Source of the DNA: Turritopsis dohrnii
Taxonomy: Eukaryota > Cnidaria > Hydrozoa > Anthoathecata > Oceaniidae
Length of the DNA stretch: 64,000 nucleotides
Reading direction: 5' to 3'
NCBI GenBank assembly: GCA_027922465.2
Contig: BQMF02000060.1
Coordinates: 124,001-188,000 of the forward strand
The translations under genes and the position numbers were made by a program. How positions within the stretch are numbered: position 1 is the first letter of the stretch; each line of letters begins with the position of its first letter. This document shows positions 31,195 through 47,010 of this stretch, piece after piece. Below the pieces are notes generated by a model. The model was not told the origin of the DNA. It made no database searches and saw nothing but the letters and a program-made list of their open reading frames with translations.

Positions 31195-31685
31195 CAAATT
31201 CAAAATCAGCAACTTCTAATTGTGCGTTGTAGAAATTTTTATGAATATTGCAGAACTTTCTAAGTTTGATCCAAATTTGGCCCGAATTACCCATTTCTGG
31301 TCAAATCTGACAAAATGACTGACAAATTCGTAATCAGCACCTTTCAAATGTGATCGGCGCAAAATTTTTTGAAATTTGAAGAACTTTCGAAATTTGGTCC
31401 AAATTTGGCCTAAATTGGCCAATTTTAGTCAAACCTGACAAAATCATTGTCAAATTCGAAATCAGCACCTTTCAATTGTGATCCGTGCAAAATTTCATGA
31501 AAATTGAAGAACTTTCGAAATTTGGTCCAAATTTGGCCTAAATTGGCAAATTTTAGTCAAACCTGGCAAAATAATTGTCAAATTTGAAATCAGCACCTTT
31601 CAATTGTGATCTTTGCAAAATTTCCTGAAAATTGAAGAACTTTCGAAATTTGGTCCAAATTTGGCCTAAATTGGCCAATTTTAGT
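31195..31685. repeat. 128-bp-period tandem repeat, left part (Polinton target site)
   Basis: The marker GAACTTTC occurs at 31253, 31381, 31509 and 31637, exactly 128 bp apart. Each unit includes AATCAGCACCTTTCAA, TGATC.GTGCAAAATTT and TTTGGTCCAAATTTGGCC. The array resumes at 46768 after the Polinton with the same unit phase, so the pre-insertion site can be read directly. Inverted relatives occur at 12905-13085 and in the arms of the 23727-27214 element. Confidence 0.85.
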
Positions 31686-31970
31686 AGAGATAGGAAAGTG
31701 CCGATGTTAGGACAAAACTATGACGTCATCAGAAATCATATGATTTCGGGAATTTCCCTACTATAGCTAATATTATCATCTTTGTTTTCATAACGCGATA
31801 CGAGTTATGAAACGTGTTATTTTGATTACACAACACATAAGCAGTTTCTATTATTATAACCGCAAATTACTCATAAATGTAAACAATATCATAAAAATGT
31901 AGTAAAAAGCAGTTTGTAGTAGTTTCATTTTTATAACATAAATAAGCTAATAATACATATGACATACAGA
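31686..31970. repeat. Polinton left terminal inverted repeat (285 bp)
   Basis: It pairs with 46483-46767. It contains TGACGTCATC, a CATATGATTTC stretch and ATCATAAAAATGTAGTAAAAAGC. Inward the pairing stops at CATACAGA. The right side then has a CACAGA microsatellite that the left side lacks, and both resume briefly at GATCA. Confidence 0.92.
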
Positions 31971-32400
31971 TCAGAGTAGTCTAGTGGATAAGAACGCTAA
32001 CTTGTAACAACAAGGTCGTGTGTTCGAACCCCACTCGGTCTCTCATGTCCTGGTTGAAAAACTTGCATGAGTGCGCACTTCCCCGCAGTTGCGTTGGATA
32101 TATCGCGGTTTGGGTAGACTTCGGTCTGGGTGATTAATCACTGTCAGGTTTCACTGGTCCACAGAGACATTCAGGTTACCGTCAAATCGATCGAAATTCA
32201 ACATAAACGTCAGGGCTTGAAGGTGTTAGCATGAACCTAAACTACTATGACATGTGGCTGTCGGGATATAAACGTCAGGGCTTGAAGGTGTTAGCATGAA
32301 CCTAAACTACTATGACATGTGGCTGTCGGGATATAAACGCCAGGGCTTGAAGGTGTTAGGATGAAGCTAAACTACTATCACATGTGGCTGTCGGTACAAA
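31968..32400 (+). mobile_element. tRNA-derived SINE-like unit with 3 x 65-bp tail repeats
   Basis: 31968-32041 folds as a degenerate tRNA: acceptor AGATCAG against TCGGTCT with one mismatch, A-box TAGTCTAGTGG, and T arm GTGTG-TTCGAAC-CCCAC containing the B-box core GTTCGAACC. The anticodon arm does not close as a normal 5-bp/7-nt stem. It is followed by about 160 bp of unique sequence and three tandem 65-bp units starting ATAAACG at 32203, 32268 and 32333. It lies between the left terminal repeat and the first gene. A SINE insertion, or a tRNA-like part of the Polinton itself, are both possible. Confidence 0.55.
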
Positions 32401-32433
32401 AACCTAAGGGTTCTCTAAAATAGAGTTTTGTTT

Positions 32434-33597
32434 TCAATAATAATAATAATACCATATACTAAACATCGTGGTAATCGCTAAAACCAAAGCTATTTTCTCT
32501 TCTTCATGAGATGGGAGTGAATCTGTTTGACTCACTACTCTTGTTTGAACTTTCTTTTGTAAACTTTTATTTTTTGTTTGTGTTGGAGAGCTAGTCACTT
32601 TGGGCGAAATATGTTGCTCTTGCATAACATTAATCATTTTGTTTCTTCCGAGGCTCAAGTTGTCATTAGATATGAGAATTTTATTATTATAACCAGACAC
32701 TCCCGACTTGATGTTTAGATTCATGTCACTAGGTAACATGTAAATACCTTGTCCAACAGAATAATCAACTTTACTTGAAGCGTAATTTAAAGTATCTTGA
32801 TAACGTTTAATGTCATCTTGAATATCAACTCTGCGGTTAACAATGTCTTCAAAGTTATTCATAAAAACTCTTTGAGCTGTTAAAGCACTTGAATTATTAC
32901 CTAAAATAGAAGAACGAGCTGAGGCTTGCGAACTAAGAAGAAGATAAGCATATGCTCTAACACTCTCTGAAATTTTTACAAGACCTGTTTTTGTAAAGCC
33001 TTTAGATTTTTCTATAATCCACCGTGTCATGGAGTCGTCTGTGAAATAACTCAGACCTGGCGTTGGATAGTCTCTACGTCTTTTTTGATACGAGCTATAA
33101 AAATATTGCCCTTTATATTTTTTAGGATCAGAATCGACACCATATTCACTACAGATTTTTAAAAACTCTTCTTTGTTATAAGGATTATCGTATTGATTGA
33201 AACTATCTTCAAAAGGTAGAGGTGTCTGCAAGCGCTTAATGATTCGTCTAATATGATAATAGACGTGAAAACGATATACTGATCTAATCATAGGAGTAGA
33301 GCGACCTTCTTTCAGGTGTTCAGAACTGACCCCACAAGCACTTGAAGCACACCAAGTGACAAAATTGAGTTGGGTTTGCCATAATTTAAATGGTTGTTCC
33401 TGCCAAATTTTCATACGTTGATCATTTTCATCCATTTCGTAATTAGTAAATATATTGGGAAAGCTCGCAGGAAAAGAACCATTTTCAGAGACGATAATTG
33501 TTTGTTTGTATAAATCTTTAGCATTCAATATCTGAAGGTATTGCCCTCCATTTGGTTTATAAAGCGCGTTGGGAACATATTTAAAAATATTCTCCAT
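32434..33597 (-). CDS. Conserved Polinton protein of unknown function (387 aa), C-terminal hydrophobic tail
   Basis: An intact 387-residue frame. I know similar proteins only as unnamed sequences from cnidarian Polinton-like loci; recognisable stretches are NFVTWCASSACGVS, VYRFHVYYHIRRI, ISESVRAYAYLL and DDIKRYQDTLNYASSKVDYS. No enzyme motif is visible. The last about 20 residues (KIALVLAITTMFSIWYYYYY) look like a membrane anchor. The five final Tyr codons are an ATA microsatellite on the plus strand, so the end may be length-variable. It is divergent from the putative minor capsid gene with 45 bp between starts, so the two probably share a promoter. A structural or virion role is possible but unproven. 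Confidence 0.75.
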   Translation of the reverse strand: MENIFKYVPNALYKPNGGQYLQILNAKDLYKQTIIVSENGSFPASFPNIFTNYEMDENDQRMKIWQEQPFKLWQTQLNFVTWCASSACGVSSEHLKEGRSTPMIRSVYRFHVYYHIRRIIKRLQTPLPFEDSFNQYDNPYNKEEFLKICSEYGVDSDPKKYKGQYFYSSYQKRRRDYPTPGLSYFTDDSMTRWIIEKSKGFTKTGLVKISESVRAYAYLLLSSQASARSSILGNNSSALTAQRVFMNNFEDIVNRRVDIQDDIKRYQDTLNYASSKVDYSVGQGIYMLPSDMNLNIKSGVSGYNNKILISNDNLSLGRNKMINVMQEQHISPKVTSSPTQTKNKSLQKKVQTRVVSQTDSLPSHEEEKIALVLAITTMFSIWYYYYY

Positions 33598-33642
33598 TAT
33601 TATTATTATTTAATAATATTATCTTCTATTTAATACAAGAAA

Positions 33643-34203
33643 ATGTATATCACAGCAAATCTCGTAAGGGGTGAGAAGACCATATATCTACCTTACCCCA
33701 TTCGAAATATGGACGGTTCGAAAGAGATCGCATTATGTGAGATATTTGGAGACACCTTCACCTATCAAATCACAACACCAATAACATTGAAGCTGTCTGA
33801 CGATGGGAAAGCTGAAAAGTTGATACCAAAACGAAAATTCACTGGCAGAGAATTGAACGCGTTTTTAGCAGGCACCTTTTTAGAAGGCGATATAGAACTT
33901 AAACCATTAGGCAAATACTCTCAAGTAATCAGAACAAATACGCTAGCTAAAATAACCAAAATGAATTTACATCTCTCTGAACTCGACAACACTCAAAATC
34001 TTGAGGATGGAAAGCTAAGCGATATTCTACTAACTATTCCCATCGATAAATATAGTGACTTTATACATACTGAGCCTAAAAATCTCCATTACAAAAAACT
34101 AAAAAACGGTGTATTCCAGTCTCTCACATTGAGACTGACAGATCAGCATGGTGGTATACTAAAAGAAGATCTGGGTACAACCGTTGTTTTGTACATCCGC
34201 TAA
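33643..34203 (+). CDS. Putative minor capsid (penton-like) protein, 186 aa
   Basis: An intact 186-residue protein rich in predicted beta strands. The C-terminal stretch LTLRLTDQHGGILKEDLGTT resembles the closing strands of small jelly-roll capsid proteins in virus-like elements. It sits directly upstream of the putative major capsid gene and packaging ATPase, the usual minor-capsid position in a Polinton morphogenesis cluster. The assignment rests mainly on order, size and general pattern. A 9-bp A/T-only inverted repeat (34224-34232 / 34238-34246) lies between this stop and the next start. Confidence 0.5.
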   Translation: MYITANLVRGEKTIYLPYPIRNMDGSKEIALCEIFGDTFTYQITTPITLKLSDDGKAEKLIPKRKFTGRELNAFLAGTFLEGDIELKPLGKYSQVIRTNTLAKITKMNLHLSELDNTQNLEDGKLSDILLTIPIDKYSDFIHTEPKNLHYKKLKNGVFQSLTLRLTDQHGGILKEDLGTTVVLYIR

Positions 34204-34247
34204 ACCGAGATAAAAAGTAAAAAATTAATTATATATCATAATTAATA

Positions 34248-35564
34248 ATGGAGTATGGAAAGAGGTTAAATCCAGAACGTTCACTTAGAACTGCTCGCGG
34301 TGTAAAAGGTTCTCGTCAAAAAGTAATTGTCACACACAATCCGAGTGAGATCGATCAAAATCAGTTATTATTGGTTAGGTTTCCAAATTTAGGAAGTGAT
34401 GATGTTATTATTCCAGGAACAACGAATCTAAGTTTTGATATTGAACTCGAATCGAAAGCTGACTCAAAAAGAACATTGGTCAGTAACATTGGAAGAGCTA
34501 TCGTTAAGAAGTTGGCTGTCAAGTTCGAAGGTAATGAGATATTGAGTATCGATGACTTTGATCTTTTTGGATGTTACAGAGATTTATGGTTAACCAAGTT
34601 TGAAAAGAGAAACGCGATAAGACAGGGTATCATCATCGACGATGGGTGTACAGAGAATTGTATGAAATTGAGGATTGGTGCTTCAGATAAAGACACCTCT
34701 GATGTAGAAGACAAGGTCATTGCTGACACCTATAAAAACAAGTTTGTCATTCCACTCGACTTTGAGATGCTAGATAGTACTATCCCATATTATCAAGCGG
34801 GTTTAGGGAATAGGTTATGCTACGAGATCACATTTAACGACTATAACCGAGTTATCTATTCTGACCCTCCAGATACTGCCGCAGGTCAAAAACGTAACCC
34901 AGATGGTAAATACAAAATATCTAACATCTCACTTGAATATGAGCTTGTGACACAACCCACGTTGGCTAGACAAATCGCTTCTGAATATCAAAACATGGCT
35001 TTGCTCTATGATAGGATTTTGCGGCACAGACAAATTAGAGTAAACAAGTCAGACACAACGTGGAATTGGTCATTCAACACACCAGCCAAATCTTTGAAGG
35101 GTATCTTAGTTCTATTTGAAGAAGAAAAATCCTACAAACGAGAAACCTGTAAATTCTATAATCCAAAGATCAAAAAGGTATCTGTCATCGTTGAGGGTAA
35201 GCCTAACCAACTTTTTGCTCAAGGGATGCAACCGTTTGAACAATACAATGAGATTTGCAAGTATTTTGCTGAAGGAAAACCAAAAGATAATAGCGTCGGC
35301 GAAAACCGAAAGCGCTTGGGATTACATGATGTAAAAGTCTCTGATTACTTAACAAACAAGTATGCTCTATGGTTAGATTTCAGAACAATTGATGAGAATG
35401 CCTTGCATGGGACCGGTCGAAGGATTGAAAATGCGAGTGAAGGCATCACTTTACAGATTGAAAAGACCGCTGAAACTGCAGGAAACTTAAACGCATATAT
35501 ATATCTAATAATGGACGCTCAATTAAATATTCAAAACGGTCAATTTATGTCTGCATTATATTAG
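34248..35564 (+). CDS. Putative major capsid protein (double jelly-roll type), 438 aa
   Basis: The largest non-enzymatic plus-strand product of the element, followed after 4 bp by the packaging ATPase gene. It begins with a basic, disordered-looking tail (KRLNPERSLRTARG) and then has alternating hydrophobic patterns typical of capsid beta strands. Stretches such as KKVSVIVEGKPNQLFAQGM, YALWLDFRTIDENALHGTG and the terminal YLIMDAQLNIQNGQ match what I recall of capsid candidates in cnidarian Polinton-like elements. Trimers of such proteins form hexons in related viruses. No structure could be computed here, so the call is contextual. Confidence 0.7.
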   Translation: MEYGKRLNPERSLRTARGVKGSRQKVIVTHNPSEIDQNQLLLVRFPNLGSDDVIIPGTTNLSFDIELESKADSKRTLVSNIGRAIVKKLAVKFEGNEILSIDDFDLFGCYRDLWLTKFEKRNAIRQGIIIDDGCTENCMKLRIGASDKDTSDVEDKVIADTYKNKFVIPLDFEMLDSTIPYYQAGLGNRLCYEITFNDYNRVIYSDPPDTAAGQKRNPDGKYKISNISLEYELVTQPTLARQIASEYQNMALLYDRILRHRQIRVNKSDTTWNWSFNTPAKSLKGILVLFEEEKSYKRETCKFYNPKIKKVSVIVEGKPNQLFAQGMQPFEQYNEICKYFAEGKPKDNSVGENRKRLGLHDVKVSDYLTNKYALWLDFRTIDENALHGTGRRIENASEGITLQIEKTAETAGNLNAYIYLIMDAQLNIQNGQFMSALY

Positions 35565-35568
35565 TAAA

Positions 35569-36174
35569 ATGGATACACTTTACATGAAAGAACCTCACAC
35601 GGCATTATTCGTCGGACCAACATCGTGCGGCAAAACGGATCGTGTTGTAAAATTATTAGAAAATCAATACTTTGATCACTTTGATTTCATCGTGATTATA
35701 TGTCCCACCTTGAGGTGGAATCAGACTTACAGAGATCGGAAGTGGTTCTGGAATGACAGCTATGTGATTTTAATTGAGCCGGAAGGATCTTTGTATGAAT
35801 GGATTAAGAAAATGGACTTTTTCTGTGCTGGATATAAAACGTTATTTCTGATTGATGATATAATAGCTGATGAAAAATTGGACAAAAAGAGACAGCCTTT
35901 GCTCGAGTTGGCAATTAGTGGTAGACATCGAAATCATTCGCTATGGTTACTTACACAATCATACACAGCTATACCTAAAAATTTACGACGACAAGCTAAA
36001 ATGTTATATGTGTGGTATCCAAAAGATAGAAACGATCTAGCCACTATTCATGAAGAAAACGATGTCATTGAATCGCAAAAAGAATTGAAAGATGTCAAAG
36101 AAAAACTGAAAGGAGGGAAACACACGTGCCTAGTCATGAGAATGGAACATCCGAGAACGCACGTGATTTGTTAA
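35569..36174 (+). CDS. A32-like genome-packaging ATPase (FtsK/HerA superfamily), 201 aa
   Basis: Walker A GPTSCGKT at residues 16-23 and Walker B LFLIDDI at residues 92-98 (tandem Asp) are clear. They are followed by HSLWLLTQSYTAIPKNLRRQ, the sensor-like Gln region of the family. The protein would pump element DNA into the capsid. Its length is normal for Polinton ATPases. It is the last gene of the capsid cluster, and its stop lies 14 bp before a perfect 9-bp hairpin that separates it from the convergent PPP1R15-like gene. Confidence 0.93.
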   Translation: MDTLYMKEPHTALFVGPTSCGKTDRVVKLLENQYFDHFDFIVIICPTLRWNQTYRDRKWFWNDSYVILIEPEGSLYEWIKKMDFFCAGYKTLFLIDDIIADEKLDKKRQPLLELAISGRHRNHSLWLLTQSYTAIPKNLRRQAKMLYVWYPKDRNDLATIHEENDVIESQKELKDVKEKLKGGKHTCLVMRMEHPRTHVIC

Positions 36175-36188
36175 ACAGGTTGACGTTA

Positions 36189-36213
36189 TTTGTTACATGA
36201 CTCTTGTAACAAA
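36189..36213. terminator. Hairpin between convergent Polinton genes (9-bp stem, 7-nt loop)
   Basis: Arms TTTGTTACA (36189-36197) and TGTAACAAA (36205-36213) are perfectly complementary. It lies 14 bp after the ATPase stop and 14 bp beyond the stop of the minus-strand gene at 36228. Its position suggests a 3'-end or transcription-termination signal usable from both sides. Confidence 0.6.
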
Positions 36214-36227
36214 AAAATATAAGACTC

Positions 36228-36473
36228 CTATAAGACTACTGTAAGACTCCTATAAGAGAATAATTTACGTCTCAATACAGGTTCTAGAATTTTACCAATA
36301 TGTTTAATCCTCGATTCAAAGCGTACTCTGTCAACAGCAGCCTCTATCCAGTTACTTCTACGAGATTCACAAGCAGAGATATAATGGACCATTACTTTAT
36401 CATTAAAAGTAACCCTTTTTGTATCTTGATGAGAAAATATAATATCATCATCTGAGGATTCATCATCGAACAT
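36228..36473 (-). CDS. PPP1R15/GADD34-like eIF2alpha-phosphatase adaptor, 81 aa
   Basis: A complete ATG-to-TAG frame, no intron. Residues 1-12 are acidic. An RVxF-type PP1 docking motif (KRVTF, residues 19-23) is followed by KVMVHYI (26-32). Then come Trp42, Ala46, Asp48, Arg49, Arg51, Phe52, Arg55 and Ile56 at the same mutual spacing as in the C-terminal core of animal PPP1R15A/B. In that family the core recruits protein phosphatase 1 to eIF2alpha, restoring translation after kinase-driven shutoff. Herpesvirus, asfarvirus and some poxvirus proteins are known mimics. The last about 12 residues derive from a local TATAAGACT repeat. It lies between the ATPase gene (convergent) and the 44-bp array. 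Function is inferred from motif match; PP1 binding alone would be a weaker claim. Confidence 0.8.
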   Translation of the reverse strand: MFDDESSDDDIIFSHQDTKRVTFNDKVMVHYISACESRRSNWIEAAVDRVRFESRIKHIGKILEPVLRRKLFSYRSLTVVL

Positions 36474-36536
36474 AATTGTTTAAGTAAACAATGTTTATTT
36501 ATTTAACAATGTTAGAATATATTATTAAACATCATC

Positions 36537-36800
36537 ATCCTCTTATAATTATTTTGTCTTACATAATTATAAGAGGACAGCAAACTCTTATACAACAAAT
36601 TTCAACAAAATTATAAGAGGACAGCAAACTCTTATACAACAAATTTCAACAAAATTATAAGAGGACAGCAAACTCTTATACAACAAATTTCAACAAAATT
36701 ATAAGAGGACAGCAAACTCTTATACAACAAATTTCAACATAATTATAAGAGGACAGCAAACTCTTATACAACAAATTTCAACAAAATTATAAGAGAGTAT
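36537..36800. repeat. Array of five 44-bp units, each with an internal hairpin
   Basis: Units start at AAGAGGACAG 36571, 36615, 36659, 36703 and 36747, with a partial sixth at 36791; the period is exactly 44 bp. Each unit contains TATAAGAG..CTCTTATA (8-bp arms, 9-nt loop). The array is preceded by a longer inverted repeat CCTCTTATAATT / AATTATAAGAGG (about 36539-36576). It occupies the divergent spacer between the PPP1R15-like gene and the membrane-protein block, so it may be a promoter/enhancer or a replication-related site. Confidence 0.85.
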
Positions 36801-36826
36801 AAGAAAATTATAACAAACACAACAAA

Positions 36827-37471
36827 ATGATAGAATATGTCAACTTCGTGTTATTAAGCATACTGCTGATCTCGCTATTTTACTTTTATTTTGTGTTAAA
36901 AAAATACCTCTCTCTAATAAAAATGGTGGAAACAGCGATCGATAATTTAATCAACCAGAGTTATGATGTTCCGGGTGAATTTCCACCTTCAGATGGTAAA
37001 AGACAAAAATTACTCGAGTGTGTCTTAACCGGTAATAGCAAGCTATACTTAGGGAAAATGTACACGGAAGAGCAAATTAACAAACTCAAAGATGAAGAGG
37101 TAGAAAAACTTTTTAGTATCTACGAGGCTAAACTATCAGGTCAAATGGTAAAATCCTTGGGGAAATCACTCATACGTATTTATTCCATGGGAGCTTGTGC
37201 AACGTTAGGAATAAACAATCAAGATGCGTTGAGCAATGACCTGGAAACTGACCCCTTCTTAAACTCTGCCCTTCAAAGATTTACATGTGACTTATATTAT
37301 AAATTCGGCTCATTATTAGCACCACTCAGTGTTGGACTTATTACCGGGAGGCATTATATCAATGAAAGGAATTTAAATAAATCCGATGATAATATAAATA
37401 CAGTAGATAATAAAAATGTCAGAAGAACAGACTCCCATTCAAGTGACAACGAAGAACCCAAAAAAGGTTGA
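36827..37471 (+). CDS. Polinton membrane protein of unknown function (214 aa)
   Basis: A strong N-terminal membrane segment (about residues 5-27) precedes a soluble part with KRQKLLECVLTGNSKLYLGKMYT and KLSGQMVKSLGKSLIRIYS, which I recall from unnamed cnidarian Polinton proteins. The C-terminal about 35 residues are polar and disordered. A second Met (residue 33) could be the start of a version lacking the membrane segment. The gene overlaps the next by 56 bp in another frame. It begins immediately after the 44-bp array. Confidence 0.7.
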   Translation: MIEYVNFVLLSILLISLFYFYFVLKKYLSLIKMVETAIDNLINQSYDVPGEFPPSDGKRQKLLECVLTGNSKLYLGKMYTEEQINKLKDEEVEKLFSIYEAKLSGQMVKSLGKSLIRIYSMGACATLGINNQDALSNDLETDPFLNSALQRFTCDLYYKFGSLLAPLSVGLITGRHYINERNLNKSDDNINTVDNKNVRRTDSHSSDNEEPKKG

Positions 37472-37760
37472 AGCGGGTAAGAAGTTGGCGGAATACAACC
37501 GTAAAAAACGAGAACAATTAAAACAAGTGTCACCTCAAAAAGAAATGGAGAAGCCTGAGGCCTCTCTCACCAAACCAAATGAACAACCCATGAACTACAC
37601 CTATGGTGTAGGTGGAATAATAGCTCTCGGTTTAGTTGGTGGATTTGCTTATTTTGTGTATAAAAAGAAAGAGCAAATATTACCCCGTGGGTCACCATCC
37701 ACCCCCCTTCCACAAAGATCTAAAATACCAGTGAAAATCAATAAACATGAAATGGAATAA
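37416..37760 (+). CDS. Small single-pass membrane protein (114 aa)
   Basis: The start overlaps the end of the 214-residue gene. It has a basic N-terminal helix (KKVEAGKKLAEYNRKKREQL), a Pro/Glu-rich linker, one membrane segment (about residues 62-82) and a Lys-rich, Pro-rich tail. No known domain. Tight packing with its neighbours suggests co-expression. Confidence 0.7.
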   Translation: MSEEQTPIQVTTKNPKKVEAGKKLAEYNRKKREQLKQVSPQKEMEKPEASLTKPNEQPMNYTYGVGGIIALGLVGGFAYFVYKKKEQILPRGSPSTPLPQRSKIPVKINKHEME

Positions 37761-37790
37761 AAAGAAAAAAAATGTATATATATAACAAAT

Positions 37791-38018
37791 ATGGACAAGA
37801 AAAGTATCGTCAACGATTTATATCACGCATCAGTCGTCTGCGTTTTCGCTATCGGCTACTCTATGCTAGGAAAAAAGGTGTTAAAAATGACACCTCCCTC
37901 TATTCAAAAGTTCGACTTGGAAGATACGGGAAAACTAGTTGCCATTATCGCCGCTAGTGAAGTGACAAAGGACTACTTAATCAAACAAAAGATTTTGCCT
38001 GAAAATATCAATATCTAA
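37791..38018 (+). CDS. Small hydrophobic Polinton protein (75 aa)
   Basis: It begins with MDKKSIVNDLYHASVV and a hydrophobic segment (about 12-30), then a second moderately hydrophobic stretch (LVAIIAASEVTKDYLIKQ). It ends 2 bp before the next start. Similar short proteins occur in cnidarian Polinton-like loci as I recall them; function unknown. Confidence 0.65.
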   Translation: MDKKSIVNDLYHASVVCVFAIGYSMLGKKVLKMTPPSIQKFDLEDTGKLVAIIAASEVTKDYLIKQKILPENINI

Positions 38019-38020
38019 AT

Positions 38021-38443
38021 ATGGCTTCTATCGCAATGATGTTGGGTGGAGCTTTGGCTAACGCTTTGGCTTTCACAGGATCAAGCTATCTGTTTTCAAG
38101 TTTATCCAAAGACAGAATCGATAGGGAAAGAAAACGTCATGATCTGGCCATAGAAAAATTACAAAAAGCACAGATTGAATGGCAGCAAAAACGACAGGAA
38201 AGGATCGATTTTATCAATAAGCAGCTTATGCTCGAAAAGAAGGCTGAGACAAAATTCGTAGAACTAAATGATGCAATGAGAGAGTACAATAGAGTATTTA
38301 GTAATCATCTTGAACCGCTACCACGAGAGCCTGTATTGAGCGACTTTTATACACCGAGTCATGATCAACATGAAAGAGAATTGGCTTTTATAGCTCTGAG
38401 TATGCTCGGTATTGGTGGAATTGTATGGTATTTTGAAAGATAA
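38021..38443 (+). CDS. Coiled-coil protein with hydrophobic ends (140 aa)
   Basis: A hydrophobic N terminus (about 1-28, small residues) is followed by a long charged helix (DRERKRHDLAIEKLQKAQIEWQQKRQERIDFINKQ in two overlapping parts, about 33-68), then a LSDFYTP motif and a C-terminal membrane segment (about 120-137). This is the last plus-strand gene before a hairpin. Unknown function; a virion membrane or core protein is possible. Confidence 0.7.
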   Translation: MASIAMMLGGALANALAFTGSSYLFSSLSKDRIDRERKRHDLAIEKLQKAQIEWQQKRQERIDFINKQLMLEKKAETKFVELNDAMREYNRVFSNHLEPLPREPVLSDFYTPSHDQHERELAFIALSMLGIGGIVWYFER

Positions 38444-38471
38444 AATGTATATTCAATTTGAGTACAAAAAT

Positions 38472-38496
38472 TATGTTACACGTATCGTGTAACATA
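38472..38496. terminator. Hairpin between convergent Polinton genes (11-bp stem, 3-nt loop)
   Basis: Arms TATGTTACACG (38472-38482) and CGTGTAACATA (38486-38496) are perfect, with loop TAT. It is 28 bp after the stop of the plus-strand gene and 17 bp beyond the stop of the minus-strand gene starting at 39803. Confidence 0.65.
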
Positions 38497-38513
38497 TATA
38501 CACACTCAGATGG

Positions 38514-39803
38514 TTACCGTCTAGTCACGAGGTACGTATAGATCATCCATCCAACCCCTACAATCAGAGCCCATAAATTTTGACTCAACCAACCTACAAC
38601 TTCTTTTGCTCTAGTGAGTATCCACGATACGATAGACCCAATTATTCCCGGTAAAGCCTCTGCCGCTTTAGACGCCAATCTACCTAGAAGTGATGCTAAC
38701 GCTTTGAGTTTATTTTTTATCCATTCCTTCGCATCGTCCTTTTTATCACCACCTTTGTCAGGATTTTGTGAAGAGCTTCCAGCTGCTGATCCTCCCGGTA
38801 ACAAAGCTTCCACAAGGACACCGATAGCCATACCAAACGCTGTCAGAATGCTAACGATTGTTATACCTTGTTCGCGGAATAATGTTCGTATCCTTTCACC
38901 TAATGTGGTATCTTTGTCGAGGACTTTAGCAATGGTTTCTTTGATGCTCGTAACTTGACTGTTTAGTTTGCCTTTGAGAATATTAATGTTCTCTTTCCTA
39001 GCTTTCAACTCTTCACGTAATCCCTCCATTCTCTTTTCAACCTCTTTTCGCTGTTCGTCCGTGTATGTTGCATCATTTTCCATTTCTTCCAACTTGTTTT
39101 TTTCCTTATCGATATGATGTTCTATTCGAACCTTTTTCGCAACCTCTTCCTGAAGACCTCCTCGTATGTTTCTCAACGCTTTATCCAATCCTAACAGCTC
39201 ACGTACAGGATATTCAAATAGATCGCCGGTCTGAGTTGTTTCATGATCGACCGATTGTTGTCTAAGCGTTGAAATTAAATCTTCTGTACTGTTCACCACA
39301 TCACCAGACATATCTTCCAACTCTACATCGGTTGCTGTTGTGATTTTAGATGTCGAAGGAAGGTCATCTGCTATTTTATTAAGTACAGCTGCCTGTCTGG
39401 CTGAAAATTTGCTCTTAGGTATATCATACCCTAAACTACGTAATCTGTTCTTACCCAATATGTCAGCTATAGTACCGGTAGCCCTTAGTCTTCCATTGTT
39501 TGTCAATGGTTTGCTACCGTCTTTGTAGTATAATTCACCATCTCTAATTTCAAACAGATCGGTATATAACGTCTCAGGTTTTGGCTGGAATTTTTCGGAT
39601 AATCTATCATACAGCCCTTCAACTAGTTCTTTCAAAACTCTAGTATGCAGACTGTGACCACCGAATGATGTTTCTCGTTCACCTGATGTATGTATCTGTG
39701 CACCCGTACGGTCACCGGTCGGTATGAGAGGAAACGTCTCATCGGTTGTTTCATCTGTCGTCATACCTTGTTCTCCAAAAGGATCTATGTCAATGTCTGT
39801 CAT
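38514..39803 (-). CDS. Large coiled-coil/membrane protein of unknown function (429 aa)
   Basis: The N-terminal about 50 residues are acidic and disordered. They are followed by DLFEIRDGELYYKDGSKPLT and GKNRLRSLGYDIPKSKFSARQA, a central coiled coil (about 205-300, Glu/Lys-rich), then GERIRTLFREQGITIVSIL leading into a hydrophobic segment. The C terminus has amphipathic helices (EALPGIIGSIVSWIL) and a final membrane segment (NLWALIVGVGWMIYTYL). I recall close relatives only as unnamed cnidarian proteins. The many glycine-rich amphipathic segments would fit membrane remodelling or entry, but this is speculation. Confidence 0.7.
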   Translation of the reverse strand: MTDIDIDPFGEQGMTTDETTDETFPLIPTGDRTGAQIHTSGERETSFGGHSLHTRVLKELVEGLYDRLSEKFQPKPETLYTDLFEIRDGELYYKDGSKPLTNNGRLRATGTIADILGKNRLRSLGYDIPKSKFSARQAAVLNKIADDLPSTSKITTATDVELEDMSGDVVNSTEDLISTLRQQSVDHETTQTGDLFEYPVRELLGLDKALRNIRGGLQEEVAKKVRIEHHIDKEKNKLEEMENDATYTDEQRKEVEKRMEGLREELKARKENINILKGKLNSQVTSIKETIAKVLDKDTTLGERIRTLFREQGITIVSILTAFGMAIGVLVEALLPGGSAAGSSSQNPDKGGDKKDDAKEWIKNKLKALASLLGRLASKAAEALPGIIGSIVSWILTRAKEVVGWLSQNLWALIVGVGWMIYTYLVTRR

Positions 39804-39863
39804 TTTATTTATTTAGAGGATAAATTATTATTAATTATTATATAACATAATCTCTCTCTAAAT

Positions 39864-40457
39864 ATGAGTTTTAAAATTTATCCAAAACTACCCACTGCTC
39901 CTGAGGATTTGAATGAGCAGGAAAAGTTTAACGCAAGCGTAATAAATTCAGAATTTGAAGAGTTGATAAAACTTAAGAACAAGTTTAGCATCAAGCTCAA
40001 GAGATACAACAAGGCGATAGAACGATCGATGCTACTAAATGCTAGCTCAAGCGCTATAACCATCGGCTCTGGCATCGGTTCAATTGCAACAGGGGCTACT
40101 ATTATCGGAATACCTATTTCTGCAGGATTAGGTGGCGTAGCCTTAGCCGGCTCTATCTGTACCGGACTTACCACAGCTGTCATCAAAAGATATCAAAAGA
40201 AAGTAGAAAAAGTGATAAAATTATATGATATTGTTACATCCTCAATTTCTGTCTTTGAAACTAACATAAGTCAGGCGCTGACTGATGGGAGGATCAATTA
40301 CAAAGAATTCCAGGTTTTACAAGGAACATATTACAAAGCTTTAGAAGGACTCAGTTCTACAGATAGAAAGATGGAGACTGAAACCCAAAATCAATTTCAA
40401 AAATGTTTGATGGTAGAACTTCAAAACCTGAAAAAATCCATAAACGAAAATGGTTAG
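39864..40457 (+). CDS. Protein with glycine-rich membrane hairpin flanked by helices (197 aa)
   Basis: Charged helices (about 15-50) lead into a long small-residue hydrophobic stretch (about 55-105, with GSGIGSIATGATIIGIPISA) and then more charged helix, including RKMETETQNQFQKCL. The layout suggests a membrane-inserting hairpin between coiled coils. It is divergent from the 429-residue gene with 60 bp between starts, so a shared promoter is likely. Function unknown. Confidence 0.7.
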   Translation: MSFKIYPKLPTAPEDLNEQEKFNASVINSEFEELIKLKNKFSIKLKRYNKAIERSMLLNASSSAITIGSGIGSIATGATIIGIPISAGLGGVALAGSICTGLTTAVIKRYQKKVEKVIKLYDIVTSSISVFETNISQALTDGRINYKEFQVLQGTYYKALEGLSSTDRKMETETQNQFQKCLMVELQNLKKSINENG

Positions 40458-40527
40458 TAGGATGTGCTTGTGTGTTCCTAAATTTGAAAAAGTGATATAA
40501 AGAAATATGATCACAAGTATATAGACA

Positions 40528-40848
40528 ATGGAATTCCCAACAGTTGATACATTTGAACAAACAATCAAAAAGCAAAACAAGGAACAAATGGCAGAGATCA
40601 TAAAGTGGCGAGAGCTACCTGAAAACGTGATTTATCATGTTAAATTTTTTTCTACAAAAGCTATGTATGCAGAGTTGAAAGACGGAGCAGGAAATATATA
40701 TAAGGTGTGGTTGCCTGAAAGACTTTTCATTGAATTAAATGATTATGGTTGGAGCTCTAGAGAGGCCTTTGTCAGACCGAAAGGTCTCAAACAATCTCAA
40801 AAGAATTCAGAAAGACAATTCTTTGATTATGACATTATATGGCGCTAG
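40528..40848 (+). CDS. Small protein, possible OB-fold nucleic-acid binder (106 aa)
   Basis: A helix-rich start is followed by VIYHVKFFSTKAMYAELKDG and NIYKVWLPERLFIELND, a strand-turn-strand pattern like an OB barrel, ending FFDYDIIW. Small proteins of this look accompany Polinton replication genes. Single-stranded DNA binding is a hypothesis only. It sits next to the integrase gene, with a hairpin between their stops. Confidence 0.5.
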   Translation: MEFPTVDTFEQTIKKQNKEQMAEIIKWRELPENVIYHVKFFSTKAMYAELKDGAGNIYKVWLPERLFIELNDYGWSSREAFVRPKGLKQSQKNSERQFFDYDIIWR

Positions 40849-40866
40849 ATAAAATCTCGTCGACTA

Positions 40867-40891
40867 ATCTTTACTTGTTTCTAGTAAAGAT
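40867..40891. terminator. Hairpin between convergent Polinton genes (9-bp stem, 7-nt loop)
   Basis: Arms ATCTTTACT (40867-40875) and AGTAAAGAT (40883-40891) are perfect. It is 18 bp after the stop of the 106-residue gene and 13 bp beyond the integrase stop. Confidence 0.6.
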
Positions 40892-40904
40892 ACTTTTGTA
40901 CGAT

Positions 40905-41888
40905 TCACCAACCTTGCACATAATCAGGAGGTAGCTCTGTATCTTCAGGTATTAATATCAGCTCTTCTTTCACAAAAGCTCGTTCAGGTCCATCTTGAAG
41001 GTAATACATTACACGGTTACCAGGTTGCTCTATTACCTCACTCAATCTATATGTCTTGTTTGACCATATTCTATCTGTTGCTCTTTTTCGATGGTCATCG
41101 TGCTCTTCACCCGGTTGCAATAGATATCTATACAAACCATCTTGAGGTAATTTTTCTTCAGGTGGATAGCTCTCTCGTTTAGCGAGAGGCACCTCTTTCA
41201 ATTTGATGGCATCTTTCGGTTTCATACCGATCATCTGAGTCTTTGTATCGTTTAATCTACCCACAAGTTTATACAAATATTTGACCCATGTGGATGATAC
41301 CTTTTCCGAATCATTTAGTTCTTGAGCATCTTGTATTTTGAATAAATTTTCAGCAAGTATCTTGTTCAATGCTTCAACAAAAGCTGTATGGGTATGCTTA
41401 TATTTAGTAGTTGCTCTTTTAATTTCAACATTATTCTTCTCCAACAATTTTGATACATCCGCTTTGAATTCTGAACCGTTATCACATTGAAATACTTTTG
41501 GATAGTTTAAGGGTCCAACCTTGTAGATGTCTTCGATCATAGCGGCAACCTCTTTCGCTCTCTTAGTATTCAAAGGTCGAGCCACCTTATAGCGTGAAGC
41601 AACATCGATACCAGACAAAATGTACTTGTATCTATTACCATATAGCATATCACTAGGCATATACAATATATCAAATTGATGAATTTCATTCGGTTTAGTT
41701 ACCTCATAATGCGGACGTTCGATTCTTTTCGGTGCTGGTAAATGTACTTGCCACAAAGCTTGCTTTGATAGCCACTTCTTAATTTCCTTCAGTTTGAAAC
41801 CAAATCCTCTTAGATTGTGAACAGCCTTTTGTCCTTTCCATAAGTTTTGAGGTTGATAATAAATCTCTTGAAGTTTAGTGTCTGACAT
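40905..41888 (-). CDS. Polinton integrase (retroviral-type rve core), 327 aa
   Basis: The catalytic triad is Asp73 (HQFDILYMPS), Asp136 (QCDNGSEF) and Glu172 (AFVEALNK), giving the D,D(35)E spacing of retroviral and Polinton integrases. The N-terminal helix-rich part (WLSKQALWQVHLPAP) is typical of Polintons; no HHCC zinc set is visible. The C-terminal part (about 265-320, TYRLSEVIEQPGNRVMYYLQ) resembles a small SH3/chromo-like barrel. The enzyme joins element ends to host DNA and makes the short target duplication seen at both borders. Complete and intact. Confidence 0.95.
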   Translation of the reverse strand: MSDTKLQEIYYQPQNLWKGQKAVHNLRGFGFKLKEIKKWLSKQALWQVHLPAPKRIERPHYEVTKPNEIHQFDILYMPSDMLYGNRYKYILSGIDVASRYKVARPLNTKRAKEVAAMIEDIYKVGPLNYPKVFQCDNGSEFKADVSKLLEKNNVEIKRATTKYKHTHTAFVEALNKILAENLFKIQDAQELNDSEKVSSTWVKYLYKLVGRLNDTKTQMIGMKPKDAIKLKEVPLAKRESYPPEEKLPQDGLYRYLLQPGEEHDDHRKRATDRIWSNKTYRLSEVIEQPGNRVMYYLQDGPERAFVKEELILIPEDTELPPDYVQGW

Positions 41889-41987
41889 TTTTTATTTATA
41901 AACAACGTTTTATTTTAGCTCATTTTGTTAAAATGACACGAGAAAAGTGGCTTAAAAGTTTTTATTATCTTTATATAAAGAATAAAC

Positions 41988-42290
41988 ATGACCGACAAAA
42001 CAGAATCAGATTACCAATCAATGACTTATGATACATTGATAAACTTATGTGCATCACGAAAAATAAAATATGTTAAGCAAATGAATAAAGCTAAAATGGT
42101 TGAGGTACTTGAAAAAAATGATAAGGATCCATCTTATACTCTCGATGCTGATACGAAACAAGCATTTTATACACGCTATTCAAACTGGATAAATAACAAC
42201 GAAGAAAAATATCTCAGATATCGAGAGCATAATAATGAGCAGAAAAAGATGGTTCGGAAACAAAAAAAATTGGCTCGTTCAACCTTGTAG
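41988..42290 (+). CDS. SAP-like small basic protein (100 aa)
   Basis: Residues about 12-45 (YDTLINLCASRKIKYVKQMNKAKMVEVLEK split over the motif) fit the helix-turn-helix pattern of a SAP DNA-binding module. The same module type begins the adjacent DNA polymerase. The C-terminal third is strongly basic (KKMVRKQKKLAR). It is divergent from the integrase gene with 99 bp between starts. A DNA-binding role is inferred. Confidence 0.6.
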   Translation: MTDKTESDYQSMTYDTLINLCASRKIKYVKQMNKAKMVEVLEKNDKDPSYTLDADTKQAFYTRYSNWINNNEEKYLRYREHNNEQKKMVRKQKKLARSTL

Positions 42291-42301
42291 AGGCTGTGTT
42301 T

Positions 42302-42327
42302 TTTGTTACTTAAAATCGAGTAACAAA
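42302..42327 (+). terminator. Hairpin after SAP-like gene (9-bp stem, 8-nt loop)
   Basis: Arms TTTGTTACT (42302-42310) and AGTAACAAA (42319-42327) are perfect. It is 11 bp after the stop and upstream of the polymerase gene, the one case in this set not between convergent genes. Its arm sequence is nearly that of the hairpin at 36189. Confidence 0.6.
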
Positions 42328-42405: not shown

Positions 42406-45400
42406 ATGACTTCACGAAATACTGTTGTTCAATTAAAAGCTATCGCGAGAGAACGCGGTCTACATGGCTACTCAAAACTCAGAAAAACTGAGTTGATCGA
42501 ATTATTAGCAAACACACCTGTCCGACCTGTTCCACTACCAAGACCTACTAGGTTTAACCGACCTGTTCCACCACCAAGACCTGTTCCACTACCAAGACCT
42601 ACTAGGTTTAACCGACCTGTTCCACCACCAAGACCTGTTCCAATTATTCCTACCCAACAAGATATGGATTTGTTTGAACAGCAAGAAATGGCAAAAAATA
42701 GACCTCAGGTGAAAAGTAAGTTGGATGAGTTGAAGGAGTGGTTAGTAAGTCACACACCTAAACCTATTCGTGAGAAAGTGAGTAGCGCTTTCAGAGAGAT
42801 GAAGAAGAAGATTCTCAATCTCTATAAGAGGAAGAATGATGATGAAAAAGATGAGGTTATCAATCAGCGAGAGGATGAAAAAGCGTTTGTTCCTGTTGAA
42901 ACAGCGTTTGATAATGCATATAGGAGATATAGGATTAGTGGTGTGAGAGAAACGAACACCTCACGAGAGAGGGATAATGTCGATGCTTTTTTTGAAAAGG
43001 TTAAACCAATATTAATTGACTCGATATTGAAAGTACTTAATGATCTAAATTCAACAAAGATACAAACAACAACCTGGATTAGGTGGAGAAAAGAAGATCT
43101 ATCCGATCCTGAAGCTATAATCTATGTTGATAAAGCGTTCAATTCTAAAATGACGGAAGTTTTTCAAGAAAGTGACTTGAATCAAACGCTTGATGAGATG
43201 TTTGCTCATATGAAGACGCAGATTGAAAACCCAAAGCTACCTAACTCTGGTTTTGTTATTGAAAGGATTTTGAATATTGATATTGACTTTCATAAGCTAA
43301 AATTAACGAGAGGCAGCTCTTACTTACCTTTACCTGAGAATTTCAGTGGGAAACGATCTGTTATCAATCCACATAACGAAGATGATGAAGAGTGCTTCAA
43401 ATGGGCTGTTATCGCAGCTCTCAATCATGATAAGATCGATAATCATCCTGAACGAATCTCAAACCTCAAAAAGCATGATAACTATAATTGGGACGATTTA
43501 TCGTTTCCAATGTCGCTAAATAAAATAGATTTGTTTGAGAGGAGGAACCCTGATATCGCTGTGCATGTTTTAACAAAAGACGATATAGATGGTATCTATG
43601 TGTGCCGTAAATCGAAGTATTTTGATCGTGAGGAGACAGCTATTTTGTTTTTACTATGTGAAGAAGAGAAAAGACATTATATCGCTGTAAAGAACTTGAG
43701 CGGTGTCTTGAGTAAGGTCAACTCGAAGCATGAACATAAAGAGCATTATTGTTTAAATTGTCTCTATGGTTTTTCAAGCGAGCGAGTTAGAGATGAACAC
43801 TTTAAATATTGTATAAATAATGATGTGGCTATGATTGAAATGCCTGAAGAGGGTAGTAAAGTTAAATTTCATGATGGACAATATCAATTCAAGGTACCTT
43901 TTATGATGTATGCAGATTTCGAGTCTGTTCTCGTAAGGTGTGAAGATACGAATAAGAAAGAACAAAATGAATCTTTTATCGAAAAAGTAACCACTCACGT
44001 ACCATCAGGTTTTTGTTGTTATTCTAAATTTGCGTATGGTAAAGTATCGAATCCTCTAAAACTGTATCGAGGTGAAGATTGTGTTGAGGTATTTGTTAAT
44101 CATGTGGTAGAAGAGGTGAAAAGATTATATAACATGTTTCCTGAAAAAGAGATGGAACCTCTAACAAAACAAGAGTGGAAGAGTTTTTCAAATGTAGACA
44201 AGTGTCATATATGTATGAAAGAATTTGGTGGTGATGAAAACCTTAGGGTAAGAGATCATTGTCACTACACTGGGAAATATAGAGGAGCTGCTCATAAGAA
44301 ATGTAACCTTAGATTCAAGATACCGTCATATATTCCTATAGCTTTCCACAATCTGAGTGGTTATGATGCTCATCTATTTATCAAAGAACTCGCGAGACAA
44401 TATGGACATGAAACATTGAGAGCGATAGCTGAAAACAAAGAGAAGTATATTTCATTTAGTCTAGACGTAAAGGTTGGTGAATACATTGACAAAGATGGAA
44501 AAACTAAAGACAAAAAGATACAGTTGAGATTCATCGATTCCGCTAGATTTATGATGAGTAGTTTGGATAATCTATCAAAGAACTTGAGTGATGAACAGTG
44601 TAAGAACCTTCGAAAATACTTCAAGGGTGATGATACTTTTAATCTGATGAGAAGAAAAGGAGTATACCCATATGAATATATGGATTCTTTCGAAAGATTT
44701 AATGAAGCGAAACTACCACCAAAAGAGGCCTTTTATAGTAAGTTAAATTTAGCTGAAATAAACAAGAAAGACTATGAACACGCTCAAAAGGTATGGAATA
44801 TGATGAAAGAGAAAACGCTTGGAAAATATCATGACCTTTACTTATTAACTGATGTGTTATTACTAACAGATGTGTTTGAGACTTTTAGAGAGACTTGTCT
44901 AGAGAATTATCAATTAGATCCTGCACATTTTTACACTGCTCCTGGTTTATCATGGCAGGCGTGTTTGAAACAAACGAGGATAGAGTTAGAATTGTTGAGC
45001 GATCTAGATATGTTTATATTTATGGAGCAGGGAATTAGAGGAGGTCTTGTTCAAGCTGTTCAGAGATATGCTGAAGCAAATAATAAGTATATGGGAGATC
45101 GATATGATCCTGCTAAAGAGAGTAGTCATCTTCAATATTTGGATGCGAACAATCTTTATGGTTGGGCGATGACACAAAAGCTGCCGATAGGTAATTTCAA
45201 GTGGGATGATCCTAATAAATTTACATCTGAAAGGATTAGTGAGTTGGTTGAAGAAAATGGTGAAAAGGGTTATATATTAGAGGTTGATGTTAGATATCCT
45301 ATAGAACTTCATGACTCGCATAATGATCTTCCATTTATGGCTGAAAGGAAAAAGATTAATAAAGTAGAAAAACTTATTCCGTGTTTATCAGATAAGAAGA

Positions 45401-46353
45401 ATTATATTACGCATATTAGAGCTCTTGATCAGGCTTTGAAACACGGGTTGATTCTAGAAAAGGTTCATAGAGTAGTAGAATTTAATCAAATCGCTTGGAT
45501 GAAACCATACATTGATTTTAATACGCAACTAAGAACACGAGCCAAAAACGAGTTCGAGAAAGATTTTTTCAAGTTGATGAATTGTTCAGTTTTTGGAAAG
45601 ACAATGGAAAATATTAGAAAACACAAAGATATAAAGTTGGTTACGCGTAAACAGCAATATGAAAAATTAGTTATGAAACCAAACTTCAAGTCGGCCACTT
45701 ATTTTAGTGAATCGTTAATGGGAGTAGAGATGGGTAAGATAAAGGTTGTTTTAAATAAACCGATTTATATGGGACCAGCTATCTTAGATTTGAGTAAGAT
45801 AGTAATGTATGAGTTTCATTATGACTATATGAAGCCGAAATATAGAGATAATCTTAAATTATTATATATGGATACGGATTCGTTAGTCTATCATATTAGA
45901 ACTGATGACTTTTATAAGGATATTGCGGATGATGTAGAAAAGAGATTTGACACGAGTGGATATAGCGTTGAAGATGGAAGACCTTTACCAATTGGAAAGA
46001 ATAAGAAAGTTCTTAAATTAATGAAGGATGAGTTGGGAGGAAAAATCATGATGGCGTTTATAGCGTTGAGAGCAAAGACTTATGCGTATAAACAAATCGA
46101 TGAAAAAGAAGGTAAGAGATGTAAAGGTGTAAAGAAATGTGTTGTTAAAAAGACGATTGGGTTTGATGACTACAAAGAGTGTTTATTCAAAAATAAGAAT
46201 GTCTACAGAGAACAAATGATTATTAGATCGATTAAACATGATGTATATACAATAAATCAAAATAAATTGGCTCTTAATGCGGATGATGATAAACGAATAA
46301 TTTTAGATGATGGAATTACAACATTAGCCAGAGGACATTATAAACATATATAA
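42406..46353 (+). CDS. Protein-primed family B DNA polymerase with SAP and zinc modules (1315 aa)
   Basis: Domains in order: SAP module (residues about 4-34); a duplicated Pro/Arg linker of RPVPLPRPTRFN units (about 42-82); a Cys330/His424 region (EECFKWAV, RHYIAVKN); a CCHC finger (Cys449, Cys452, His465, Cys469); exonuclease motifs I (Asp504, Glu506), II (Asn649, Asp654) and III (Tyr812, Asp816). Between exo I and II is an endonuclease VII-like zinc module (Cys600, Cys603, Asp617-His-Cys-His, His630, Cys633). Polymerase motif A is at Asp913 (YLDANNLYG), B at Lys1056 to Gly1064, and C is DTDS at 1156-1159. All catalytic residues are present. The enzyme replicates the linear element from a terminal protein primer. 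The last gene before the right terminal repeat. Confidence 0.96.
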   Translation: MTSRNTVVQLKAIARERGLHGYSKLRKTELIELLANTPVRPVPLPRPTRFNRPVPPPRPVPLPRPTRFNRPVPPPRPVPIIPTQQDMDLFEQQEMAKNRPQVKSKLDELKEWLVSHTPKPIREKVSSAFREMKKKILNLYKRKNDDEKDEVINQREDEKAFVPVETAFDNAYRRYRISGVRETNTSRERDNVDAFFEKVKPILIDSILKVLNDLNSTKIQTTTWIRWRKEDLSDPEAIIYVDKAFNSKMTEVFQESDLNQTLDEMFAHMKTQIENPKLPNSGFVIERILNIDIDFHKLKLTRGSSYLPLPENFSGKRSVINPHNEDDEECFKWAVIAALNHDKIDNHPERISNLKKHDNYNWDDLSFPMSLNKIDLFERRNPDIAVHVLTKDDIDGIYVCRKSKYFDREETAILFLLCEEEKRHYIAVKNLSGVLSKVNSKHEHKEHYCLNCLYGFSSERVRDEHFKYCINNDVAMIEMPEEGSKVKFHDGQYQFKVPFMMYADFESVLVRCEDTNKKEQNESFIEKVTTHVPSGFCCYSKFAYGKVSNPLKLYRGEDCVEVFVNHVVEEVKRLYNMFPEKEMEPLTKQEWKSFSNVDKCHICMKEFGGDENLRVRDHCHYTGKYRGAAHKKCNLRFKIPSYIPIAFHNLSGYDAHLFIKELARQYGHETLRAIAENKEKYISFSLDVKVGEYIDKDGKTKDKKIQLRFIDSARFMMSSLDNLSKNLSDEQCKNLRKYFKGDDTFNLMRRKGVYPYEYMDSFERFNEAKLPPKEAFYSKLNLAEINKKDYEHAQKVWNMMKEKTLGKYHDLYLLTDVLLLTDVFETFRETCLENYQLDPAHFYTAPGLSWQACLKQTRIELELLSDLDMFIFMEQGIRGGLVQAVQRYAEANNKYMGDRYDPAKESSHLQYLDANNLYGWAMTQKLPIGNFKWDDPNKFTSERISELVEENGEKGYILEVDVRYPIELHDSHNDLPFMAERKKINKVEKLIPCLSDKKNYITHIRALDQALKHGLILEKVHRVVEFNQIAWMKPYIDFNTQLRTRAKNEFEKDFFKLMNCSVFGKTMENIRKHKDIKLVTRKQQYEKLVMKPNFKSATYFSESLMGVEMGKIKVVLNKPIYMGPAILDLSKIVMYEFHYDYMKPKYRDNLKLLYMDTDSLVYHIRTDDFYKDIADDVEKRFDTSGYSVEDGRPLPIGKNKKVLKLMKDELGGKIMMAFIALRAKTYAYKQIDEKEGKRCKGVKKCVVKKTIGFDDYKECLFKNKNVYREQMIIRSIKHDVYTINQNKLALNADDDKRIILDDGITTLARGHYKHI

Positions 46354-46482: not shown

Positions 46483-46767
46483 TCTGTATGTCATATGTAT
46501 TATTAGCTTATTTATGTTATAAAAATGAAACTACTACAAACTGCTTTTTACTACATTTTTATGATATTGTTTACATTTATGAGTAATTTGCGGTTATAAT
46601 AATAGAAACTGCTTATGTGTTGTGTAATCAAAATAACACGTTTCATAACTCGTATCGCGTTATGAAAACAAAGATGATAATATTAGCTATAGTAGGGAAA
46701 TTCCCGAAATCATATGATTTCTGATGACGTCATAGTTTTGTCCTAACATCGGCACTTTCCTATCTCT
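46483..46767. repeat. Polinton right terminal inverted repeat (285 bp)
   Basis: Reverse complement of 31686-31970 with no difference noticed. Immediately inside (about 46463-46484) lies a TCTGTG microsatellite absent from the left side. TTAGT (46768-46772) follows the end. Confidence 0.92.
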
Positions 46768-47010
46768 TTAGTCAAACCTGGCAAAATCATTGTCAAATTC
46801 GAAATCAGCACCTTTCAAATGTGATCCGTGCAAATTTTTATGAAAATTGAAGAACTTTCGAAATTTGGTCCAAATTTGGCCTAAATTGGCCAATTTTAGT
46901 CAAACCTGGCAAAATCATTGTCAAATTCGAAATCAGCACCTTTCAATTGTGCTCTGTGCAAATTTTCATGAAAATTGGTCAACTGGAAGTCCTAATTTGA
47001 CCAAATTTGC
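46768..47010. repeat. 128-bp tandem repeat, right part (Polinton target site)
   Basis: It continues the repeat interrupted at 31685: TTAGTCAAACCTGGCAAAAT, AATCAGCACCTTTCAA and GAACTTTCG (46852). The last unit decays after about 46975. A GTA microsatellite follows at about 47065. Confidence 0.85.

Follow-up and report, generated by a model that had tools for sequence, protein, structure and literature searches.

A Polinton in the genome of Turritopsis dohrnii carries a short gene whose product is almost certainly, judging from its sequence, a homologue of the phosphatase adaptor PPP1R15/GADD34. The gene lies on the minus strand at positions 36228 to 36473 of the 64,000-nucleotide stretch analyzed here (the window). 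As the original prediction stated, it is intronless and encodes 81 residues: the reading frame (P0001) runs from an ATG at 36473 through 81 codons to a stop codon ending at 36228. We consider it rather likely that this is a cellular PPP1R15 gene, captured and trimmed, whose product would recruit PP1 together with G-actin to dephosphorylate eIF2alpha.

The Pfam profile PF10488 (PP1c_bdg/PPP1R15) matched P0001 with an E value of 3e-7 and a score of 30.8 bits, against a curated cut-off of 26.1, and the match joined residues 13-59 to profile positions 164-210. A phmmer comparison with proteins of solved structure gave gap-free alignments to PPP1R15B over residues 14-58 and 14-59 (E values 8.2e-6 and 1.2e-5) and a match to the viral adaptor DP71L over residues 16-70 (E value 1.6e-4), while the PPP1R15A constructs gave weak hits (E values 0.22 and 0.61). 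Similarity to PPP1R15 therefore reaches well beyond the RVxF motif, which bears out the proposed PPP1R15/GADD34-like identity. The further claim that the match covers nearly the whole protein was slightly generous, since the profile spans residues 13-59 and the useful similarity approximately residues 13-67 of the 81. A chance match to the RVxF motif was considered and ruled out by the PF10488 score, by the PPP1R15B and DP71L matches, and by the shuffling of the motif pattern described below.

All of the residues that had been singled out beforehand are present in the translation, namely KRVTF at 19-23, KVMVHYI at 26-32, W42, A46, D48-R49, R51-F52 and R55-I56. The protein begins with an acidic stretch at residues 3-10 (36444..36467, minus strand), and such a stretch likewise precedes the core of the candidate host gene discussed below. 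This is followed by the RVxF PP1-docking motif, RVTF, at residues 20-23 (36405..36416, minus strand), a motif described in the accessible text of PMC10743859, and by the phi-phi motif V29-H30 (36384..36389, minus strand). According to the same portion of that source, the counterparts in human PPP1R15A are KVRF (residues 555-558) and Val564-His565; the distance between the two motifs is identical in P0001, so that by spacing they correspond to RVTF and V29-H30.

Residues 38-56, RRSNWIEAAVDRVRFESRI (36306..36362, minus strand), are predicted to form the helix that binds eIF2alpha and actin. Ten positions are fixed in the eIF2alpha-binding consensus that the available part of PMC5346070 cites from Rojas 2015; nine of them are matched here, with S in place of G, N or L at the tenth. 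When this pattern was searched as a regular expression with one position left free, it occurred once in the six frames of the window and in none of 200 residue shuffles. In the PPP1R15A complex, Arg591, Arg594, Arg587 and Asp588 lie at eIF2alpha, and Phe592 and Arg595 are important for actin (PMC8500838, accessible portion). Counting the spacing from the tryptophan, P0001 retains W42, D48, R51, F52 and R55, and V47 and S54 replace the eIF2alpha-contacting Arg587 and Arg594. Beyond the helix is an LxxxL motif, L63-L67 (36273..36287, minus strand), whose positions align with the leucine pair on which DP71L depends according to the excerpted text of PMC5346070. The RARA motif that follows the core is absent from P0001. 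Since that text describes DP71L as also being without RARA, this motif is not demanded of short members of the PPP1R15-core group.

The 3' end of the gene is overlapped by an 11 bp tandem array (36218..36257) that encodes a ragged C-terminal tail, and for this reason the last residues of the adaptor vary among copies. Directly upstream of the adaptor start is a second array at 36561-36795, with 5.3 copies of a 44 bp unit that are 98% matching, which could be regulatory. No RNA structure was found at the 3' end of the gene (z 0.57), and searches for Rfam and tRNA matches found none.

The element that carries the adaptor extends from 31686 to 46766 (15.08 kb). Its terminal inverted repeats are 285 bp long, 100% identical and 14.5 kb apart, at 31686..31970 (plus strand) and 46483..46766 (minus strand). 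The repeat search extended the right arm to 46767, and its last base was assigned to the target-site duplication, a 6 bp TTTAGT that flanks both ends of the element (31680..31685 and 46767..46772). The identity of the repeats suggests a young insertion. From left to right, the element contains gene X (32434..33597, minus strand; 387 residues, with no function assigned), a 186-residue open reading frame (33643..34203, plus strand) that gave no profile match and is by its position a putative minor capsid or penton protein, a 438-residue open reading frame (34248..35564, plus strand) that by position and conservation is the putative major capsid protein, a Pox_A32-type packaging ATPase identified with Pfam (35569..36174, plus strand) that adjoins the adaptor gene, an rve integrase, also identified with Pfam (40905..41888, minus strand), and a PolB gene recognized by its visible motifs (42406..46353, plus strand). 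Among these motifs is YMDTDS, which we take to be a PolB motif. The polymerase reading frame also has a Rho_N-like N terminus, a proline-rich repeat and an Endonuclease VII-like piece (Endonuclease_7).

The description of this Polinton as intact thus holds for the repeats, the target-site duplication, the integrase, the ATPase and the visible polymerase motifs, while the capsid protein is putative and no protease or PolB profile was matched at an E value of 0.01 among the 14 other Polinton reading frames scanned. The 438-residue frame, situated where the double jelly-roll major capsid protein would be expected, has 3473 homologues; it had no Pfam or PHROG match and no match to PDB sequences below an E value of 0.5, and a fold search in which an alignment of the query with 21 of the 3473 homologues was compared with PDB sequences, together with PHROG, found nothing credible. 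That the adaptor might be a host gene merely situated near a Polinton was rejected, since in the window the terminal repeats enclose it and at almost all other loci sampled (counts below) it adjoins the ATPase. In the flanking DNA, a 553-residue reading frame at 21907-23568 matched DUF6589 (E value 5e-37) and is probably part of another mobile element, and two reading frames beside the insertion, at 47371-47904 and 48419-48949, resemble the host genes RHINO (at the Pfam cut-off) and LOH1CR12.

The genome assembly (435.9 Mb in 891 contigs) was searched for further copies. The adaptor protein gave 455 first-look candidates, the best 150 of which were 93-100% identical and free of stop codons. 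A search with PF10488 gave 413 candidates, the best 150 of which were all above the Pfam cut-off with open frames, and a search with the ATPase gave 941, with one internal stop codon among the best 150. Because only the best candidates were scored, these numbers say nothing about decayed copies. We read 82 distinct places of the window type, after dropping the duplicates L051, L040 and L041 and setting apart L082 and the divergent family B described below. The adaptor frame was present in 81 of these: the window copy, 47 picked by similarity to the adaptor, 31 picked by the ATPase, and two (L085 and L086) found with the database protein P0132. The ATPase was used to pick copies so that their choice would be independent of the adaptor gene. 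Of the 33 copies in that sample, the window included, 32 carried the adaptor (30 of 30 in the main sample, which contains the window copy, and two of three taken from further down the list), so that the frame is conserved in sister elements. The exception, L098, has no adaptor, and its ATPase is followed directly by the next gene. Conversely, the ATPase lay beside the adaptor in 50 of 50 adaptor-picked loci; one of these, L001, is the window copy, and the pairs L030/L041 and L032/L040 each stand for a single place.

Loss of the Trp, R-F and R-I residues in orthologues had been named as a point against the PPP1R15 assignment; these residues and the aspartate were retained in 81 of 81 frame-bearing copies. 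The same 81 copies all have the RVxF motif (with R or K) and the V/I-H pair. At least nine of the ten eIF2alpha consensus positions were present in every copy and all ten in 41 of the 81; residue 40 was G in 41 copies, S in 39 and D in one. LxxxL was retained in 78 of 81. In L039 (C333:10032-10220 of the same genome), an acidic segment, ESSDDDIIFS[YH]QD, occurs three times in tandem, and in L082 it occurs twice.

Sequence change in the adaptor was compared with that in neighboring genes among 30 ATPase-picked rows. Changes shared between copies numbered nine non-synonymous and three synonymous in the adaptor, and singletons eight and three, corresponding to dN/dS-like ratios of 0.74 and 0.66, respectively. 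The ATPase gave much lower ratios, 0.08 and 0.14, and so did the C terminus of the putative capsid protein, with 0.17 and 0.25. An earlier sample, biased by its choice through the adaptor, had given 0.52 versus 0.19. Between the window copy and the divergent L082 there were nine non-synonymous changes and one synonymous change (a ratio of 2.5), and between L010 and L082 the ratio was 0.63. Recent constraint on the adaptor is therefore weak, or change has been favored; the numbers are small. No stop codon was seen in 68 codons of the 30 rows, where few would be expected in any case.

Two types of divergent adaptor were found. An element on contig C105 has an ATPase 97% identical to that of the window and an adaptor, L082, with a longer spacer, MIAWDYAYRKSRRSNW, where the common type is shorter; it scored 15.4 bits against PF10488 (cut-off 26.1). 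The second type is family B. Both types, and the C11 frame described below, came to light when P0132 was used as a query on the same genome. Among the best 150 of 420 candidates, 12 family B places, one of them with an in-frame TAA, were 46-49% identical to P0132. The window type (family A) and family B are 48% identical over 66 amino acids. In the two family B surroundings that were fetched, on contigs C773 and C108, the adaptor adjoins the 3' end of a gene X that is 82% and 70% identical, respectively, to gene X of the window, and it is therefore situated at another site in the Polinton than the family A adaptor. The corresponding region of the window, between the left repeat and gene X, has three copies of a 65 bp unit (32203-32394), and no adaptor remnant was found there with tblastn.

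Family B carries a longer version of the adaptor, which upstream of the core has the sequence SKYHxxCC in common with the candidate host gene. In the nine family B copies that were read (L083, L084 and L087-L093), this sequence was in frame with the core in two (L084 and L087) and unjoined in seven (L083 and L088-L093), with a lysine tract at the change of frame in the unjoined copies. Slippage, decay or recoding may each account for the frame change, and the seven unjoined frames tell somewhat against a maintained long form.

The candidate host gene is located on a separate contig, C11, as an open frame of 345 amino acids. A 272-residue stretch of this frame (P0137) has TKRVHFGEETVCNLVTWSYAYKQSRKGDWVKMANDRAHFKRRIENVGKVLEPVLK and a further eight residues at its end, and ahead of these come an acidic run and FCFQHD. 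Its locus was the only full match among the best 142 of 425 candidates, and 13 other Polinton reading frames (the polymerase excluded) had no match in the 1.5 kb around the gene. P0137 had no Pfam match, and in the PDB search it matched PPP1R15A (E value 0.0058) and DP71L (E value 0.014); it departs from the eIF2alpha consensus by having H for R. With this modest profile support, the C11 gene is a candidate for the host PPP1R15. For the presumed substrate, eIF2alpha, the host genome gave a match to PF07541 at one place; the match is interrupted by a TGA, which may be due to an intron.

The adaptor aligns with P0137 across both core and tail. Family A and the candidate host gene share a stretch of acidic residues, after which come F and residues rich in Q/H, as well as a GK[IV]LEPVL tail, and among the cellular proteins compared the candidate host gene was the best match, with 47.4 bits versus 38.5 for the best vertebrate PPP1R15B piece. 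Those similarities that lie outside the functional core, the SKYHxxCC of family B included, argue for gene capture and not for convergence on a motif. In a tree built from the core (residues 19-68 of the window copy) the deep nodes had supports of 23-65, which is compatible with one or several captures in any order.

Relatives outside this genome were also sought. Scans of IMG/VR gave no confirmed relative, and a protein-database search with P0001 alone produced one candidate and no relative. When the query was an alignment of 11 rows, one of them a piece of human PPP1R15B, the search returned 15 proteins at E values of 1 or less among 39 candidates. Ten of them (P0122-P0131) we take to be pieces of vertebrate PPP1R15B, and P0134 is a chain from a human structure. 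The remaining four (P0132, P0133, P0135 and P0136) are short proteins that stand alone on contigs of 1.0-3.1 kb; as P0132 and P0133 fall under the Pfam cut-off and P0135 and P0136 have no Pfam match, these four are no more than possible relatives. P0135 and P0136 have an acidic start, KKVTFSD, RF..RI and ILKPVL, but no Trp, and are perhaps a further reduced relative.

In its layout the adaptor resembles the core of animal PPP1R15B/CReP and PPP1R15A/GADD34, with an RVxF motif, an equally spaced V-H pair and a W...RF..RI helix, and to PPP1R15B it can be aligned without a gap over residues 14-59. It differs from both in having 81 residues, as opposed to more than 600 in mammals (size from the accessible text of PMC10998612), in having neither the ER-targeting part nor RARA, and in the substitution of V47 and S54 for two eIF2alpha-contacting arginines. 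Short viral mimics of PPP1R15 are known from herpes-, asfar- and avipoxviruses (PMC5346070 and PMC8301327, in the portions available). Like DP71L, ICP34.5 and canarypox 231, the adaptor is a stand-alone short core, and with DP71L it shares the alignment over residues 16-70, including LxxxL, and the lack of RARA. Unlike these three, its carrier is an integrated Polinton, with hundreds of candidate copies in the genome. The terminal inverted repeats, 6 bp target-site duplication, rve integrase, PolB motifs and A32-type ATPase are those of Polinton/Maverick elements, and the size of 15.08 kb is within the span of 12.7-24.6 kb that the accessible part of PMC8097293 reports for Mavericks of vertebrates; what this element has in addition is the PP1-adaptor cassette between the ATPase and the next gene. 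The original prediction knew of no report of such a gene, and our literature search, for the most part confined to papers free of subscription, likewise found no published Polinton adaptor of the PPP1R15, GADD34 or eIF2alpha kind. The word 'phosphatase' occurs zero times in the accessible main texts on Mavericks, adintoviruses and their kin (PMC8097293, PMC11071296, PMC11071308). The protein is thus of a known kind, and what is new is the kind of carrier.

How might such a protein act? RVTF and the V-H pair would dock on the PP1 catalytic subunit, and the W...RF..RI helix would be presented to G-actin and eIF2alpha. PP1 would in this way be directed to Ser51 of eIF2alpha, leading to its dephosphorylation, and translation, including that of the Polinton's own proteins, could continue when replication triggers an eIF2alpha kinase. 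In vitro, a core of approximately 70 amino acids suffices when PP1 and G-actin are present, and viral and invertebrate forms have this core in common, as reported in the available text of PMC10998612. We regard action on eIF2alpha as probable, and a role as a counter-defence in an infection-like phase as having a little better than an even chance; its link to an antiviral kinase of the host, and with it a response of the PKR/PERK type, is one that we infer.

The adaptor could instead be derived from PPP1R15 and still bind PP1 but have been retargeted, for example to a protein of the element's particles or to a host regulator, with no action on eIF2alpha. The two eIF2alpha-touching arginines of human PPP1R15A that are not kept would fit such a change of partner, as would the universal retention of RVxF and V-H (81 of 81 copies) in a gene that changes faster than its neighbors. 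Yet the tryptophan, aspartate, R-F and R-I residues, which include those facing actin and eIF2alpha, are equally universal, the LxxxL pair is kept in 78 of 81, and families A and B would be expected to have diverged in an eIF2alpha helix that served no purpose; we therefore think retargeting unlikely. There is a very small chance that the short protein holds PP1 or G-actin without delivering eIF2alpha and thereby blocks the host PPP1R15. A trimmed core with imperfect eIF2alpha contacts might behave in this manner, but DP71L, a short viral protein of the same layout, is described in the accessible text of PMC5346070 as causing dephosphorylation.

It is also conceivable, at slightly lower probability than retargeting, that the adaptor has no function and is a piece of a host gene that a Polinton acquired and spread through its own amplification. 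Such a passenger would account for dN/dS-like ratios near 0.7 in recent copies and 2.5 between the window and L082, for the ragged C termini, for the L098 element that does without an adaptor, and for the seven of nine family B copies in which the core frame is unjoined to the upstream stretch. Over longer distances the evidence is against it. The core is present in two distant families (48% identity over 66 amino acids) at different sites in the element, and dN/dS is 0.46-0.58 between family A or L082 and family B and 0.21-0.44 between family A, L082 or B and the candidate host gene (with dS of 1.0-1.8). The motif sites are, moreover, far more conserved than the rest: when L010 (family A), L087 (family B) and the host gene were compared, 14 of 17 literature-defined motif positions were invariant versus six of 33 other core positions (Fisher 1.7e-5). 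Adding P0132 changed these counts to 12 of 17 versus three of 33, and adding P0132, P0133 and P0122 to eight of 17 versus none of 33. The stop-free 30 rows point in the same direction, though with few stops expected.

The chances are about even, in our estimation, that the Polintons of T. dohrnii are infection-like now, or were until recently, in cells that answer with an eIF2alpha kinase, two lineages of these elements carrying at two different sites a phosphatase adaptor captured from the host and trimmed to a minimal form of about 60 residues. On that reading a transposable element would possess a gene for immune evasion, which would point to eIF2alpha-based antiviral defence in T. dohrnii. 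The adaptor would also be a clear case of the capture of a host gene by a virus-like transposon, and, as a small and testable protein, a natural minimal PPP1R15 core with which to ask which contacts are needed. A conserved countermeasure against translational shut-off would indirectly support the view that the Polintons of animals form virions and encounter the immune defences of their hosts.
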